From contig CANMVS010000006.1 in NCBI GenBank assembly GCA_947501445.1, positions 1 to 64,000 of the forward strand: a stretch of DNA of 64,000 nucleotides, read 5' to 3'. The notes beneath the pieces were generated by a model, which was not told where the DNA came from, searched no databases, and saw only the letters and a program-made list of their open reading frames with translations. Of the stretch, positions 38,564-45,529 are shown one piece after another. The DNA is from an uncultured Rhizobiaceae group bacterium (GTDB lineage Bacteria; Pseudomonadota; Alphaproteobacteria; Rhizobiales; Rhizobiaceae). Both the position numbers and the translations under genes were made by a program. How positions within the stretch are numbered: position 1 is the first letter of the stretch; each line of letters begins with the position of its first letter.

Positions 38564-38653
38564 TGGCGGAGAAGAAGGGATTCGAACCCTCGAGACGGTT
38601 CCCCGTCTACTCCCTTAGCAGGGGAGCGCCTTCGACCACTCGGCCACCTCTCC
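38564..38653 (-). tRNA. tRNA-Ser (anticodon GCU)
   Basis: 90 bases including an encoded 3' CCA. The acceptor stem GGAGAGG pairs with the 3' side before GCCA. The D-loop has GCCGAGTGGTCGAAGGC, the anticodon arm CTCCCCTGCTAAGGGAG with anticodon GCT, a long class II variable arm (TAGACGGGGAACCGTCTC) and T-arm GGTTCGAATCC. The long variable arm plus anticodon identify serine (codons AGC/AGU). Confidence 0.97.
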
Positions 38654-39436: not shown

Positions 39437-40319
39437 ATTCCGCAATTTACGGGTGCGCGTCAATCGCCCTCCTCGTGTCCAATTTGCGAAAACACACACA
39501 GATCAACATTCATTTTTAATTGACCAAATCAAAATCCCTCATTCGCGAGCGGCTCAACTTGTTGAGTGGCCATTTGCCTGATTTTCAACAATCAGCTCAA
39601 TCCAACACATTGTGCCATGTTACACCAACGCGCTGACACATTGGAAATGGCCGTACATATATATCGCAAGAAAGTGTAGTCGGTGATGCGATAGAGGCAA
39701 CGCGCAACGCATTGACTACATCTTCCTGGAAACCAAACAGCCACCTCAGAGTGAATAGGCAATCTGTCGTCAAGCTCTAGCAGTTGGACGACACATCGGT
39801 CACCACAAATGACCCATCCAATTTTCCGTTCATATATAAGACACGCTCGCATTACGCAAAACCAACTACAATTTGGAATGCACTCAATTATCTGCAATTG
39901 TTTGGATCCCGATCAATATCCGATTCAACACAGCCGCGAGATCAATATCCACGCCCTTCCCGGCGACCCAAGCGCCCATATAGAATCGAAACGCATACAT
40001 CGCGCACGAACAATGACGATTCCGCTCACCGACAGCCGATTCTGGTCCTATCAAGCGGTAAAAGTTAATATCGGTAAACGGTTTAGGCAGGTTCACAGCC
40101 AAAACCGTGTCATTTGTGCAACAACCATTGGGCATCAACCCGCCATGCCCCTGCAAGAGGCCAAATGCACGTTGCGCTCCTCACAGTCATGAGTATCTTC
40201 AACATCAGAAGAAGGACGGATGACCGTTTGTCTTCTTTTCGTTGGGGATGGGACAGGGAAACGCTGTTTCGCAGCCAATGCCCAGACCATTTAAAGAATA
40301 TTGACTGGAGGTCAGAAAA
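39437..40319. other. Long gene-poor region upstream of porin 1
   Basis: About 880 bases with no convincing gene. Frames of 90-130 codons on both strands lack family resemblance, balanced codon use or ribosome binding sites; a minus-strand frame of 90 codons (39884-40156) is the least unlikely. The right-hand 120 bases should hold the porin promoter and leader. It could be a decayed gene or a long regulatory leader. Confidence 0.45.
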
Positions 40320-41405
40320 ATGAACATTAAGAGCCTTCTCCTCGGCTCCGCAGCAGCAATGGTTGCTGTTTCTGGTGCTTCCGCAGCCGATGCTATTATC
40401 GCTGCTGAGCCAGAGCCCGTAGAATACGTACGCGTCTGTGACGCATTCGGTGCTGGATACTTTTATATCCCTGGTACCGAAACATGCCTGAAAATAAGCG
40501 GTTTTGCCCGTTTTGACGTAGGCTTCAACAGCAATGATGACAGCTATTCGTCAACGACACGTGGCCGTTTGAATATTCAGGCCAAAGAAGACACAGAACT
40601 TGGTCTCCTACACGCCTACATACGTTTTCAGGGCAACACCGCTCCCGATGATGATTCCACATATGATGCTGAGACATTCATCGATCAGGCATACTTGGAA
40701 CTTGGCGGTTTAGTCGCTGGTTACACCGAAAACACCTTTGTATCATCCAAGAACGGTGGCGCATCCGGTTTCGGCACGCATTCTGACGATGGTCTTGCAT
40801 ACGGTTACGGTCAGTCGAACCAGATTGGATACAACTTTACTGGTTCAAACTGGTTTGCCAATATTTCCGCTAATGACGATGCGGATGGTGATAGTTACAC
40901 ACCTGATTTCACCGGCCGTGTCGGTGGCGTGTGGGGCGGCGCAACGATCTTCGCAGCAGCTGGTTACGATCAGTCCGCTGAGAATTTTGGTATCAAGCTT
41001 GGTCTGAACACCGACATTGGTGCTGCCGGCAACCTGATCGTACAGGGTTTTTATGCCGACGGTCCAACACGTTACGGTGCCAATAAAACAGCCTTCGCGG
41101 CTGCTGGTACACGTACAGCAGAATGGTCAATTCTGGCTTCATACCAGCAGACATTCTCGCCCAAGTTCAAGGGTTCTATTGGTGGACAGTATTCTGCTGA
41201 CTACTACAGTGCTGCGCTTACCGGACAGGCTCCGCTTGGATCAGCCAATTCTGGTGTAGATTCTTGGGCAGTTGAAGGTGTTCTGGTCTGGATGCCTGTG
41301 ACCAATTTTGAAGTACGCGGCGAAGTTCGTCACACCGCATTTTCAGGCCCCAATGCGGCTGAAGATGCAACGACGGGTCTCTTCCGTCTGCAGCGCAACT
41401 TCTAA
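40320..41405 (+). CDS. Outer-membrane porin, Omp2/RopA type (copy 1)
   Basis: General diffusion porin of 361 residues. A signal peptide (MNIKSLLLGSAAAMVAVSGASA, cleaved before ADAI) precedes the family's disulfide-forming N-terminal segment (VCDAFGAGYFYIPGTETCLKISG), beta-strand motifs such as RGRLNIQAKEDTELG, a Gly/Asn-rich loop 3 region (GGASGFGTHSDDGLAYGYGQ) and a terminal aromatic strand ending LFRLQRNF. The ribosome binding site GGAGG sits inside a small TGAC/GTCA stem. The first 190 bases are almost identical to porin copy 2, which faces it across two recombinase genes; exposed segments differ. Confidence 0.95.
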   Translation: MNIKSLLLGSAAAMVAVSGASAADAIIAAEPEPVEYVRVCDAFGAGYFYIPGTETCLKISGFARFDVGFNSNDDSYSSTTRGRLNIQAKEDTELGLLHAYIRFQGNTAPDDDSTYDAETFIDQAYLELGGLVAGYTENTFVSSKNGGASGFGTHSDDGLAYGYGQSNQIGYNFTGSNWFANISANDDADGDSYTPDFTGRVGGVWGGATIFAAAGYDQSAENFGIKLGLNTDIGAAGNLIVQGFYADGPTRYGANKTAFAAAGTRTAEWSILASYQQTFSPKFKGSIGGQYSADYYSAALTGQAPLGSANSGVDSWAVEGVLVWMPVTNFEVRGEVRHTAFSGPNAAEDATTGLFRLQRNF

Positions 41406-41453
41406 GCTTACGGCTTAACAGTTGTCAACAGGCAATCTGATACGATCAATTGG

Positions 41454-41488
41454 AAACGCCTGGTGGCTTTATGCTGCCGGGCGTTTTT
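41454..41488 (+). terminator. Rho-independent terminator after porin 1
   Basis: AAACGCC (41454-41460) pairs with GGCGTTT (41480-41486); the interior TGGTGGC/GCTGCCG extends the stem and TTTTT follows. It lies just before the ribosome binding site of the downstream recombinase gene, so that gene may be expressed only by readthrough or from a weak promoter. Confidence 0.75.
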
Positions 41489-41510
41489 GCTGTGTGGAGG
41501 GGTTCAGCAA

Positions 41511-42368
41511 ATGCCAGCCAATAAGAAAGCGAATGATTTAAATAGTTTGTGGGACAAATATGCGGACCTTCTGTGGGAAGAGGGAAAACACAAGGAGGCT
41601 TGCGGGGCCTATATAAGTGAAATCCATCACTTCATGGCCAAATACGGTTGCACCAAATATGACAACATCCTGCTTGACGGGCTGACGAAACATTTTCGCA
41701 AGAAGGGCAACAGGAACGCCACGATCAATCGGAAGTTTGCCAGTCTATCGAAAATACTACGCAAACACCGCAGTGTCGGTGGTTTGGATATATTGCCGGA
41801 TTTTTCAAAATTACCGGAACGCAATGCGCGCGTCCGCTTTCTTTCACATCAGGAAGAAAGACAGATGCTGCGATTACTCGAATCCCATCATGACAAATAT
41901 GCGCAGTTGTCCCGCTTTCTGGCGGAAACCGGTGCGCGCGTGGGCGAGGCTCTCAATCTGAAGTGGGCTGATATAGATGACAATTATATAACGTTTTGGG
42001 AAACCAAATCCTATCGGCCGCGCAGCGTACCCATCTCCGAAAGGGCGGGAAGGGTTATTGCAAAGCAGCGTAAGTTTTGCGGCCAGCGAGCCGGCCCCTT
42101 TAGAACAGTGCGCTACTTTCGCTACCGGCTTTGCTGGAATGCAGCCAAGGATGCGACTGATATGCGTGATGATCGACAGGTGGTGCCCCATGTATTGCGC
42201 CATACCTGTGCCTCGCGCCTTGCTCAGGCAGGCGTGGACATTAAGCGGATCCAGGAGTTCCTCGGTCACCGTACATTGACGATGACGTTGCGCTACGCGC
42301 ATCTGTCACCAAGGCATCTTGATGTCTGTGCCGATGCGCTTAACAGCATGAACCGCAGTGAACATTAG
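41511..42368 (+). CDS. Tyrosine recombinase (copy 1)
   Basis: Site-specific recombinase of 285 residues. The N-terminal SAM-like core-binding domain spans about 10-95 (LWDKYADLLWEEGKHKEAC, NATINRKFASLSKILRKH). The catalytic domain shows the arginine in ETGARVGEALNLKW (about 150), the box-II H-x-x-R in VPHVLRHTCASRL (about 230), LGHRTLTMTLRYAH with the histidine and the nucleophilic tyrosine (about 262). All catalytic residues appear present. The ATG at 41511 has GGAGG upstream. It lies 105 bases after porin 1 and converges on its near-duplicate at 42440. Confidence 0.93.
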   Translation: MPANKKANDLNSLWDKYADLLWEEGKHKEACGAYISEIHHFMAKYGCTKYDNILLDGLTKHFRKKGNRNATINRKFASLSKILRKHRSVGGLDILPDFSKLPERNARVRFLSHQEERQMLRLLESHHDKYAQLSRFLAETGARVGEALNLKWADIDDNYITFWETKSYRPRSVPISERAGRVIAKQRKFCGQRAGPFRTVRYFRYRLCWNAAKDATDMRDDRQVVPHVLRHTCASRLAQAGVDIKRIQEFLGHRTLTMTLRYAHLSPRHLDVCADALNSMNRSEH

Positions 42369-42388
42369 CCACTGCATTCACAGCAAAA

Positions 42389-42413
42389 AACCCAGCAGAT
42401 CAATTGCTGGGTT
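42389..42413. terminator. Bidirectional terminator between the two recombinase genes
   Basis: AACCCAGCA (42389-42397) pairs perfectly with TGCTGGGTT (42405-42413) around a 7-base loop. CTTTGTATTT follows on the plus strand and TTTTTTGCTG on the minus strand, so it serves both converging genes. It marks the symmetry centre of the porin-recombinase duplication. Confidence 0.85.
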
Positions 42414-42439
42414 CTTTGTATTTAACAGATTATGTCGCT

Positions 42440-43288
42440 TCAAGCTGCCAGGCGGTCGCCGTTGAGATTGTTGAGCGCATCTGCGCAGACATCAAGATGT
42501 TTGGGGGACAGATGCGCGTAGCGCAACGTCATCGTTAGGGTACGGTGACCAAGGAACTCCTGGATCCGCTTAATGTCCACGCCTGCCTGAGCAAGGCGCG
42601 AGGCACAGGTATGGCGCAATACATGGGGCACCACCTGTCGATCATCACGCATATCAGTCGCATCCTTGGCTGCATTCCATCCCTTGCGGTAACGAAAGTA
42701 CTCGACAGAGCGAAAAGGCCCGGTTTTCCTTCCGTAACTCGCCTTTTGCTTTTCAAGTGCTTCCCTGGCCCGCCGTGTCATTGGAATGGTGCGTGGTCGA
42801 TAGGACTTAGTTTCCCAAAAAGTGATGTATTCACTCTCAATATCAGCCCAATTCAATTTCAACGCTTCACCGACGCGAGCGCCTGTTTCCGCCAAGAACC
42901 GCGATAGCTGGGCAAAGTTATCATCGACCTCCTCAAGACCGCTGAGCATCTGCTCCTCCTCTGACTGGGTCAGAAACCGAATACGCGCATTGCGTTCGGG
43001 AAGTTTTTCGAAGTTCGGTATTTTTGCCAGCACACCATTCTTATGGTGCTTGCGTAAGATTTTGGAAAGACTGGCAAATTTCCGATTGATTGTAGCGTTC
43101 TTATTACCTTTTTGCCGGAAATGGATTGTGAGTCCATCGAGCAACTGATTATCGTACTCCGTCATTTTGTTTTTCTGCATATACCGATGAATTTCATCGA
43201 TGTATGCCTCACATGCCTCTTTATGTTTCCCTTCCTCCCACAAAAGGTCCGCATAGCTTTTCCATAAAACGTTCAGGTTTTCGCCCAT
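42440..43288 (-). CDS. Tyrosine recombinase (copy 2)
   Basis: 282-residue paralogue of the recombinase at 41511, on the opposite strand. Same architecture: core-binding domain (LWKSYADLLWEEGKHKEAC, NATINRKFASLSKILRKH), then ETGARVGEALKLNW, VPHVLRHTCASRL and LGHRTLTMTLRYAH with all catalytic residues. A 128-bp block of the catalytic domain is identical in DNA to copy 1 (42552-42679 versus 42135-42262), although the N-terminal halves are clearly diverged. It is downstream of porin 2 on the same strand, separated by that gene's terminator. Confidence 0.93.
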   Translation of the reverse strand: MGENLNVLWKSYADLLWEEGKHKEACEAYIDEIHRYMQKNKMTEYDNQLLDGLTIHFRQKGNKNATINRKFASLSKILRKHHKNGVLAKIPNFEKLPERNARIRFLTQSEEEQMLSGLEEVDDNFAQLSRFLAETGARVGEALKLNWADIESEYITFWETKSYRPRTIPMTRRAREALEKQKASYGRKTGPFRSVEYFRYRKGWNAAKDATDMRDDRQVVPHVLRHTCASRLAQAGVDIKRIQEFLGHRTLTMTLRYAHLSPKHLDVCADALNNLNGDRLAA

Positions 43289-43384
43289 AACTCTTTGATC
43301 TAATCCTTACAATTGTCGCCCACAATGTTCGTAGATGTATCGAGTTCTCTAAATTGCCGGTTTCTCCATATCTGTCGTTGAGTC

Positions 43385-43416
43385 AAAAAAAACGCCTGAT
43401 GCAAAACATCAGGCGT
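43385..43416 (-). terminator. Rho-independent terminator after porin 2
   Basis: On the minus strand ACGCCTGATG pairs perfectly with CATCAGGCGT (43392-43401 and 43407-43416) around a 5-base loop, followed by TTTTTTTT. It separates porin 2 from recombinase copy 2, mirroring the arrangement on the other arm. Confidence 0.9.
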
Positions 43417-43470
43417 CTCATTGAGTGTCGATGGCTATACTAGACAACCATCCCAGCAAAAGCTGGATTA

Positions 43471-44631
43471 TTAGAAGTTACGCTGCAGACGGAACAGACC
43501 CGTTGTTGAGTTTGAACTGGAACCGATACCACCACCAGAGAATGATGTGTAACGTACCTCACCACGAACCTCGAAGTTGGTTACAGGCATCCAAACCATC
43601 ACGCCTTCAACAGCCCAAGAGTCTACACCAGAGTTGGCCGAAGCCAATGGAGTTTGGCCAAATACTGCAGTTGAATAATAGTCAGCCGAGTACTGACCAC
43701 CTACAGAAGCCTTGAACTTTGGAGAAAATGTCTGCTGATAAGACGCCAGAATGGACCACTCAGGCGTAAAGGTTGTGCCAGCCCCGTTGATGAAGGTGTT
43801 GTTTGCAGGTGCATTGTTTGCACCATAACGTGTAGGACCGTCAGCATAGAAACCTTGAACGATCAGGTTACCCGCAGCACCAATGTCCGTGTTCAAACCA
43901 AGCTTTACACCGAAGTTTTCAGCGGACTGGTCATAACCGGCTGCCAAAAAGATTGTCGCACCGCCCCAGACACCACCAACACGACCGGTGAAATCAGGCA
44001 TGTAGCTTGAGCCATCACCATCGTCATTGGCTGAAATTGCTGCAAACCAGTTGGAACCGGTGAAGTTGTAACCAATCTGGTTAGACTGCCCGTAACCATA
44101 TGCGAGACCATTATCAGAATGTGATCCGAAACCAGACGCGCCACCATTCTTCGAGCTTACCCAAGTTGTTTCAGTATAACCTGCAACGAGGCCGCCAAGT
44201 TCAAAGTAGGCCTGATCGAATACTGCACCACCATCATATGTAGAGCCGGTATTTTCATCAGAGTTGTCTGGACCAATATCCGCCTGAATACGAATATATG
44301 CATGCAAAAGACCAAGTTCAGTGTCTTCTTTTGCCTGAATATTCAAACGACCACGTGTCGTTGTTGTATAGCTTCTAGTTGGGTCGTCATCAGCGTTACG
44401 GCTATAATCAGCATTGTCACCCTGAAAACCTACATCAAAACGGACAAAACCGCTGATTTTCAGGCATGTTTCAGTACCAGGGATATAGAAATATCCAGCA
44501 CCGAATGCGTCACAGACGCGTACGTATTCTACGGGCTCTGGCTCAGCAGCGATAATCGCATCGGCTGCGGAAGCACCAGAAACAGCAACCATTGCTGCTG
44601 CGGAGCCGAGGAGAAGGCTCTTAATGTTCAT
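43471..44631 (-). CDS. Outer-membrane porin, Omp2/RopA type (copy 2)
   Basis: 386-residue porin, paralogue of copy 1 on the opposite strand. Signal peptide and the first 60 residues are essentially the same (VCDAFGAGYFYIPGTETCL), as are the barrel core and the end LFRLQRNF. Three segments likely to be surface loops are longer or different: after FDVGF (GDNADYSRNADDDPTRSYTT), after AYIRIQA (DIGPDNSDENTGSTYDG) and after RYGANN (APANNTFINGAGTTF). The start at 44631 has the same TGACTGGAGGTCA leader as copy 1; sequence further upstream is unrelated, so the two promoters differ. Confidence 0.95.
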   Translation of the reverse strand: MNIKSLLLGSAAAMVAVSGASAADAIIAAEPEPVEYVRVCDAFGAGYFYIPGTETCLKISGFVRFDVGFQGDNADYSRNADDDPTRSYTTTTRGRLNIQAKEDTELGLLHAYIRIQADIGPDNSDENTGSTYDGGAVFDQAYFELGGLVAGYTETTWVSSKNGGASGFGSHSDNGLAYGYGQSNQIGYNFTGSNWFAAISANDDGDGSSYMPDFTGRVGGVWGGATIFLAAGYDQSAENFGVKLGLNTDIGAAGNLIVQGFYADGPTRYGANNAPANNTFINGAGTTFTPEWSILASYQQTFSPKFKASVGGQYSADYYSTAVFGQTPLASANSGVDSWAVEGVMVWMPVTNFEVRGEVRYTSFSGGGIGSSSNSTTGLFRLQRNF

Positions 44632-44691
44632 TTTCTGACCTCCAGTCATATTACGGAGATCAGGTATCCTGGGTTGTATATTGTACCTAAT

Positions 44692-44708
44692 ACGTGTATT
44701 TTACACGT
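44692..44708. promoter_or_regulatory. Palindrome in the porin 2 promoter region
   Basis: ACGTGT-atttt-ACACGT, a perfect 6-bp inverted repeat about 60-77 bases upstream of porin 2. There is no counterpart upstream of porin 1. It could be an operator; nothing identifies the regulator. Confidence 0.35.
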
Positions 44709-44751
44709 TATGGGACTAAAAATCGCGTAATTGGAAATTTGGGTGCAATTC

Positions 44752-45018
44752 CTAATGCATCGTCATCCATTCACGCGCTGCGCGCAGTGCTTCGGCCAAA
44801 TCCGCCTTATTCATCGTCTTTGCCAGGTCTGAACGCAGCTCTGCTGCGCGGTTCGACCCCTTGATTGCAGCTATATTGAGCCATTTGTGAGCTGCAACAT
44901 GGTCCAATGGGCAATCGCGTCCGGCCGCATACATGAGGCCCATTTCGCAAAATAGGCTCGCTTCAGCCTTGCCACCCATGGAAGACAGGTGCTGATCAAG
45001 ATGTTCAAATCGTGCCAT
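44752..45018 (-). CDS. Small Sel1-repeat-like protein
   Basis: 88 residues containing one Sel1-type (TPR-like) repeat: ASLFCEMGLMYAAGRDCPLDHVAAHKWLNIAAIKGSNRAAELR. No signal peptide. Short proteins of this type are common in Hyphomicrobiales and of unknown function; Sel1 repeats mediate protein contacts. The ATG at 45018 has GGGA upstream; the longer frame (to 45048) reads into repeat copy D and is not used. Confidence 0.7.
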   Translation of the reverse strand: MARFEHLDQHLSSMGGKAEASLFCEMGLMYAAGRDCPLDHVAAHKWLNIAAIKGSNRAAELRSDLAKTMNKADLAEALRAAREWMTMH

Positions 45019-45529
45019 AGTATAATTCCCTGTTCTAGACCGTTTCACGTTTTGTCAGAAACCGGACAACGGTGTCTGCCTTTGATTTTTTTTATGCGTT
45101 CTGGTTTTGCCGATTCCGTCAAAACCTGAGTTGTTTCAATGCCGTTTGTTGGACCTGTTAAACTTCCAAGAGTTTTGTATTCACCGGTTTTTCCGGCGTC
45201 TTTTTGATGAATGCAGTGTGCCCGTCGGAGTTGAATCCGGCGTTAAATTGCATGCTTAATTTCGTGCAAACAAAGTCCAAACGATTGGTAAATTTGTGTT
45301 TTCGTTAAACATCGCGGATGCCTGATACCGGGCATTTGTGCAAAAATTGACTAAAATTGCAGCGATCTGATTTCAACCACTTGATAACCACGAAAAACAT
45401 CAACAATCCAGTTCGCGAGCTGAAGTTGCTGAAAAAGCTTTTCAATTGCCTTGCAATTCCGGCTGCAGATCAACCCGATTTTGTATAGACTGCACTGCAA
45501 TTGAGGCTAACCGGTTTGCAGGAGACTTC
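45019..45529. other. Intergenic region with repeat copy D
   Basis: About 510 bases between divergent small genes. Besides the repeat at 45037-45136 it holds a weak ACCGG-ttttt-CCGG hairpin followed by TCTTTTT (about 45194-45214). No gene is supported. Confidence 0.5.
45037..45136 (+). repeat. Dispersed two-hairpin repeat, copy D
   Basis: About 100 bp beginning AGACCGTTTCACGTTTTGTCAG, immediately upstream of the Sel1-like gene. The second hairpin is CTGGTTTTG/CAAAACCTG with one mismatch. Divergence from the other copies is slightly higher (for example GTCTGCC for GTCGGCC). Confidence 0.85.

Follow-up and report, generated by a model that had tools for sequence, protein, structure and literature searches.

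What can a bacterium do with two porin genes that face each other, each followed by a tyrosine recombinase of its own? The question is raised by a locus in a 64,000-nucleotide stretch of DNA (the window; positions 1 to 64,000 of contig CANMVS010000006.1, assembly GCA_947501445.1) from an uncultured bacterium of the Rhizobiaceae. We think it probable that the locus is a recombinase-driven switch that selects between two porins. The recombinases (usually one per locus, two in the window) would recombine inverted copies of a 13-bp site, TGACTGGAGGTCA, that coincides in part with each porin's ribosome-binding sequence. The segment to be flipped in the window would be 40302-44648 (4.3 kb), so that a different porin would come to lie behind a single leader at 40107-40301; where the porins are instead divergent, the leader segment itself would flip. 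The likely use would be a change of major porin with one always kept expressed. The parts of the locus are as follows.

40107-40301, plus strand: conserved leader, here called A, a candidate expression site, with a GTGTCATTTGTGCAACA motif at 40107 and a GGGGATGGG-type block plus CCCAGACC kept in 32 genera over about 200 nt
40302-40314, plus strand: left candidate recombination site, an exact TGACTGGAGGTCA at the identity step within pairs, which also holds the ribosome-binding sequence
40320-41405, plus strand: porin 1 (Porin_2, 361 aa), downstream of leader A; open frame with Pfam match
41452-41488, plus strand: terminator-like hairpin separating porin 1 from recombinase 1 (folding z -4.1)
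41511-42368, plus strand: tyrosine recombinase 1, 285 aa from ATG (a longer form from a GTG at 41463 is possible); open frame, Pfam match and alignment
42389-42413, both strands: bidirectional terminator-like hairpin common to both recombinases (folding z -5.2)
42440-43288, minus strand: tyrosine recombinase 2, 282 aa; open frame, Pfam match and alignment
43389-43419, minus strand: terminator-like hairpin separating porin 2 from recombinase 2 (folding z -6.6)
43471-44631, minus strand: porin 2 (Porin_2, 386 aa), without leader A; open frame with Pfam match
44636-44648, minus strand: right candidate recombination site, an exact TGACTGGAGGTCA in inverted repeat I9
44649-44760, minus strand: region B upstream of porin 2, without the conserved leader in a cross-genus comparison

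The original prediction, made from this stretch alone, had described a mirror order of porin, recombinase, recombinase and porin with homologous inverted arms, intact catalytic residues, intervening terminators and no phage or integrative and conjugative element genes nearby, and this description held up. All four frames are open, the porins match Porin_2 (PF02530; E 1.1e-58 and 4.8e-67) and the recombinases Phage_integrase (PF00589; E 3e-24 and 2.2e-24). Both arms are lined with inverted repeats, chief among them a perfect 18-bp repeat upstream of the porin starts and a 209-bp repeat with 96% identity; the two porins are 86% and the two recombinases 74% identical. Six residues, R138, K161, H222, R225, H248 and Y257, which we take to be catalytic, are invariant across 18 aligned recombinases that include both window copies (alignment A3, from which L011 was left out for an internal stop). 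All three hairpins fold far better than shuffled sequence. None of the six neighbouring open reading frames (ORFs), two of which match no family, belongs to a mobile-element family, and it is for these six that the claim about phage and conjugative elements holds; the rest of the window is without annotation. TGACTGGAGGTCA has just two exact matches in the window. This exact site, its abrupt upstream edge and the restriction of the conserved leader to the left porin go beyond the original description. Searching the 6.8-Mb genome with porin 2 returned only the two window porins, and with recombinase 2 the two window recombinases plus three weak matches.

How widespread is this arrangement? A single-recombinase query identified relatives in 15 of 61 genomes (counting the one it came from), and a profile built from the 18 recombinases then detected the family in 137 of 394 Rhizobiaceae genomes, which represent 45 of 109 genera; three genomes gave more than one match. 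An order-wide sample gave 13 matches in 297 genomes, eight of them Rhizobiaceae. We compared the window with 137 further loci; of the 138 recombinase loci, 131 have a same-strand porin within 1 kb 5' of the recombinase. Inverted porins lie within 4.5 kb in 97 of the 138, and 32 of the remaining 41 end at a contig end. Such ends, within 2.6 kb of the recombinase, fall on the porin side in 32 of 136 loci and on the other side in five, as expected at a repeat or switching site. Across 141 loci (window and three recombinase-free controls included), 73 have the order porin(-) porin(+) recombinase(+), 31 only porin(+) recombinase(+), eight porin(+) recombinase(+) porin(-), 27 some other order and two, the window and G002, the four-gene mirror. 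At L177, no recombinase ORF exceeds the score limit. Divergent porins with a flipping leader segment are the commoner layout (81 of 94 pairs) and the convergent form of the window is rarer. The 94 pairs were drawn from site-bearing porins, so that both members having the site is partly by construction; four inverted-porin loci near a recombinase (L103, L107, L139 and L158) lie outside this set.

Comparison across these loci points to a single short site as the boundary of exchange. We scanned 218 porins, leaving out those whose start was uncovered or not at model position 1, and found TGACTGGAGGTCA just 5' of the start, exact in 190 and with at most one mismatch in 203. Eleven porins have more than three mismatches, ten being extra porins away from the pair and one belonging to a recombinase-free genome. 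Within 92 inverted pairs, identity upstream of the site is about 25%, rising to as much as 71% over the last three bases; it is 91% at the first base of the site, 100% over the following 13 and at least 90% until about position 90. The same step is seen with one pair per genus (34 genera). The inverted arrangement of sites also tracks the enzyme. Of the 394 genomes, 97 with the recombinase and 14 without it have exact sites on both strands; the corresponding counts are 20 and 174 for sites on one strand only, and 20 and 69 for no exact site. Setting aside the 89 genomes without an exact site, two-strand sites are found in 97 of 117 recombinase-positive genomes versus 14 of 188 negative ones (Fisher p 2.5e-43, kinship ignored). 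Of those 14, six have two divergent sites at most 0.9 kb apart, and three of the six retain recombinase remnants. It is the neighbouring recombinase that would perform the inversion.

Some inverted site matches lie far apart: 36 kb in G318 (contig C12, 348526/384738), 15 kb in G025 (C4, 149481/164442) and 11 kb in G142 (C3, 312676/323789), spacings that suggest larger inversions may have happened. In L172 (11168-17974), about 6.8 kb separate two inverted sites around a long ORF that we take to be TamB-like; G202 (C13) and G353 (C27) have the same spacing.

The two upstream regions are not equivalent. Exactly one leader A is present in 91 of the 94 pairs, with three undecided, and in the window it precedes the left porin only. 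With one locus per genus, conservation of leader A extends over about 200 nt across 32 genera, and the B side shows no conserved block across the same 32. One conserved leader facing a side without conservation looks like one expression site that chooses between two porins, and the simplest reading is that the other porin is silent, only the leader-side porin being made. Silencing of the B porin by an anti-Shine-Dalgarno hairpin was considered and rejected, as predicted GGAGG pairing is not commoner on B and A is more open in just 44 of 91 pairs. The B side does carry CCTCC within 35 nt in 26 of 91 (A, 0 of 91), and GATTC or GATTT in its final 8 nt in 31 of 91 (A, 0). The recombinase sits behind the leaderless porin in 71 of 89 single-recombinase, leader-bearing pairs, two double-recombinase loci being left out. 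Read-through from the leader could raise the recombinase and flip the locus back; relatedness alone could also suffice for this bias, and the window has a terminator-like hairpin between porin and recombinase.

If the locus is a switch, both orientations should be found among relatives, and they are. We compared divergent loci pairwise wherever their recombinases shared at least 82% identity, which gave 73 pairs, some members recurring in several of them. The leader lies on opposite sides in 20, and in 18 of these the inter-porin segment aligns solely when reverse-complemented; of 51 same-label pairs displayed, 46 align forward only and five both ways. The recombinase tree requires at least 12 orientation changes, on a quick tree in which 31 of 90 inner branches are weak. 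In the best pair, L095 and L096, the recombinases are 96.3% identical, both flanks are collinear and each porin best matches its positional partner. Their leaders agree at all 40 nt next to the site yet have changed sides (identity on the other side is 72.5%). A T/A difference at site position 0 travels with the leader; positions at which the two porins differ, which begin at +89, remain with the flanks. The convergent layout of the window has its own example: between L284 (S. meliloti AK57) and L265 (Sinorhizobium K101), a 3.36-kb porin-recombinase-porin segment, 84% identical and bounded by sites, is inverted, with 4.5 kb of collinear flank on one side. The AK57 locus lies beside dapA and smpB on a 3.7-Mb record that is labelled pSymB but, from its size and these two genes, looks like the chromosome. 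By comparison, the prediction that recombination at the porin 5' ends inverts the intervening DNA is strongly supported, in both layouts; its two promoters are not equivalent, the layout it described proved the rarer one and the module also looks mobile.

One draft genome, G263, hints at switching within a single culture. Four of its contigs stop at the site, two carrying upstream sequence (leader A in one of them) and two carrying a porin, and they have just 37 bp in common; among 20 other contig starts of this assembly (one masked), three pairs share 117-121 bp. Since the assembler spans shorter repeats elsewhere, a break at 37 bp would be expected only if all four joins were present in the reads, which may indicate a mixed culture.

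Several observations weigh against a recombinase-driven switch. Many recombinase-free genomes carry the site as well, which weakens the idea of a purely recombinational site; it is presumably also an ordinary porin leader and ribosome-binding sequence, its conservation partly due to translation or regulation. Identical runs within pairs are long (median exact run 128.5 nt), and RecA could use these too. Alignment in both directions, in five of the 51 displayed same-label pairs and two of the 20 opposite ones, is confined to one genus. For L284 and L265, the collinear flank outside the porin on the leader side is only about 470 nt. Three near-identical Sinorhizobium strains, K101, M103 and C101, show one orientation only, and the window locus was assembled in one. 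Finally, the G263 signal comes from one genome and is indirect; on contig C120 of that genome, another leader-A-like copy and a porin accompany a fifth site.

Four alternatives deserve consideration. First, the unit could be mainly a mobile element with the porin 5' end as its target, and inversion a side effect that was not selected as a switch. Matches to the recombinase occur in 26 plasmid records, and 17 of the 22 examined carry porin and recombinase without leader A, the recombinase frame being broken in three (L277-L279). The pSymA module of S. meliloti R28 (L271) matches, with 98.8% identity over 2334 bp, a porin-recombinase unit of AK57 (L284) that sits between leader A and the next porin, with different flanks; the same module with defined ends is found in unrelated places, as would be expected of a self-mobile cassette. 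Its ends, ...GATTCTGACT and ..CTGGAGGTCA, place the joint at about TGACT/GGAGG, and the right end recurs in Ensifer records L268 and L281. The conserved ends and the leaderless plasmid modules with a matching copy behind leader A all favour this alternative, but one copy per genome is usual, the recombinase tree largely follows genera and a single leader is kept in 91 of 94 pairs, so that we regard it as unlikely.

Mobility and selection by inversion may also coexist. The module looks mobile between replicons and may be a mobile porin cassette. In a tentative extension, about which we are nearly evenly divided with some leaning towards doubt, each site-porin-recombinase unit would be a minimal self-mobile cassette: having left its place as a circle, it would insert at TGACT/GGAGGTCA, immediately downstream of the one porin leader, and displace the old porin. 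A tail-to-tail pair, as in the window, would become an inversion switch, and chromosomes and plasmids throughout the Rhizobiaceae would draw on a common stock of exchangeable porins, with phages as the probable driving force. The leaderless porin of a cassette would then come under the expression site of its host, and the plasmid modules suggest exchange of porins between replicons. No clean empty site for the pSymA module was found in three candidate pSymA-type records, which differ over a wider stretch. A recent phage origin was rejected, the eight phage matches listed, out of 1252, being 33-38% identical. Two plasmids of Pseudorhizobium flavum YW14 (L282 and L283) carry one porin-recombinase module each.

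Second, the window locus could be a fixed relic in which switching has been lost. The two sites of the window share just 18 bp up to the first difference, which, with the single assembled orientation, would suit a relic; however, both recombinases are open with their invariant residues and both sites are exact. We doubt this alternative, and switching probably continues in the organism of the window.

Third, RecA recombination and gene conversion between inverted porins could cause both the inversion and the homogenized 5' ends, the recombinase being a passenger. The coding sequences are nearly identical over long stretches, porins cross-match between some species pairs, and gene conversion has been reported for Brucella omp2 in the text available to us (PMC7050475). 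Yet the inverted arrangement tracks recombinase presence, the identity edge is abrupt at one short site, the exact run is as short as 16-18 bp in L126 and the window and is broken at site position 0 in eight pairs, the G263 junction is 37 bp and the module joint falls at the same position. Taken together, these make a RecA origin quite improbable.

Last, that both porins are expressed from separate regulated promoters, with orientation having no effect, is very unlikely: the B side could hold an unconserved promoter, but it has no conserved block across 32 genera and, of the Brucella pair, only omp2b is reported as expressed in the parts of PMC7050475 available.

The switch that we favour resembles known systems without matching any. 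Phase switches of the fim type have inverted sites and a linked tyrosine recombinase, and inversion chooses the side on which a promoter lies. The window likewise has inverted sites bounding a segment and a linked recombinase with invariant residues, and both orientations exist between relatives; unlike fim, it selects between two porins rather than on and off, and its site is placed at the ribosome-binding sequence. For the two tyrosine DNA-invertase families, recombinase 2 reaches only 37.5 and 34.8 bits, far below the cut-offs of 222 and 221. XerC and XerD are similar in overall family and size, but their cut-offs are far from reached (XerD 81.3 of 329.6, XerC 77.3 of 335.15). As in integrons, a tyrosine recombinase would insert a gene behind a fixed leader, although here each module carries its recombinase inside, and the integron-integrase cut-off is missed (67.2 of 265 bits). 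In Brucella, according to the available text, about 830 bp separate omp2a from omp2b, two related porin genes that are read in opposite directions, and expression is reported for one of them (PMC7050475). The window too has two related, inverted Porin_2 genes; the Brucella pair is described through gene conversion, and 'integrase' and 'inver' are absent from the main text of that paper. A survey of invertible sites, in the portion available, lists none in four alphaproteobacterial samples (PMC5903667). In the portions of the literature searched, we recognized no published description of a recombinase-driven porin switch in these bacteria.

The porin of the AK57 locus, a rhizobial major porin beside dapA and smpB, we infer to be RopA1 itself. 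The title of Crook et al. 2013 reportedly describes S. meliloti RopA1 as essential. This porin is a receptor for many phages (PMC10132094); several phages require it, and a phage-resistant Agrobacterium isolate had undergone ropA1-ropA2 recombination (a deletion) with loss of phage adsorption, according to the available parts of these sources (PMC10132094, PMC6256558, PMC6992544). The accessible text of PMC10132094 presents RopA as a receptor gene and describes no switch. The locus could also serve antigenic or permeability change. With a receptor that is also called essential, a switch under which one porin is on at all times would be an elegant means of replacing it, and escape from phages with one porin always on is the use we prefer. 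More generally, an enzyme, a site and an expression leader together offer a mechanism for the inverted pairing of porin genes in the Rhizobiaceae. Many of these bacteria appear to carry the switch, and cells could thereby alter the surface protein through which viruses enter. A porin change was also sought in the Ensifer adhaerens evolution isolate W2-B9 and rejected as a case of switching: after nine months, it differs from W2-B by a single base over a 14.8-kb stretch, a missense change in a porin (L268, position 6137).

Some loci depart from the usual layouts. A recombinase-free species of the genus of the window has three tandem porins in the same direction (L181, 8765-13092), each with a leader-like upstream region and the third with a degenerate site. 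Beside a site in L214 (9538-10230, plus strand), an ORF joins porin residues 1-26 to the C-terminal part of a recombinase and looks like a deletion product. In L219 (6736-7765, minus strand), the G241 recombinase is broken across three reading frames adjoining a divergent porin pair.

Around the window locus itself, an Rfam scan gave two matches (E 6.7e-5 and 0.32), far under the gathering score and taken as chance. A tRNA-Ser (GCT) gene lies 1.6 kb to the left (38564-38653, minus strand); tRNA genes are common integration targets in general. To the right, a partial copy of the leader motif, CATTTGTGCAA, occurs at 45333-45346 on the plus strand (repeat D9), upstream of an ORF that starts at about 45446.

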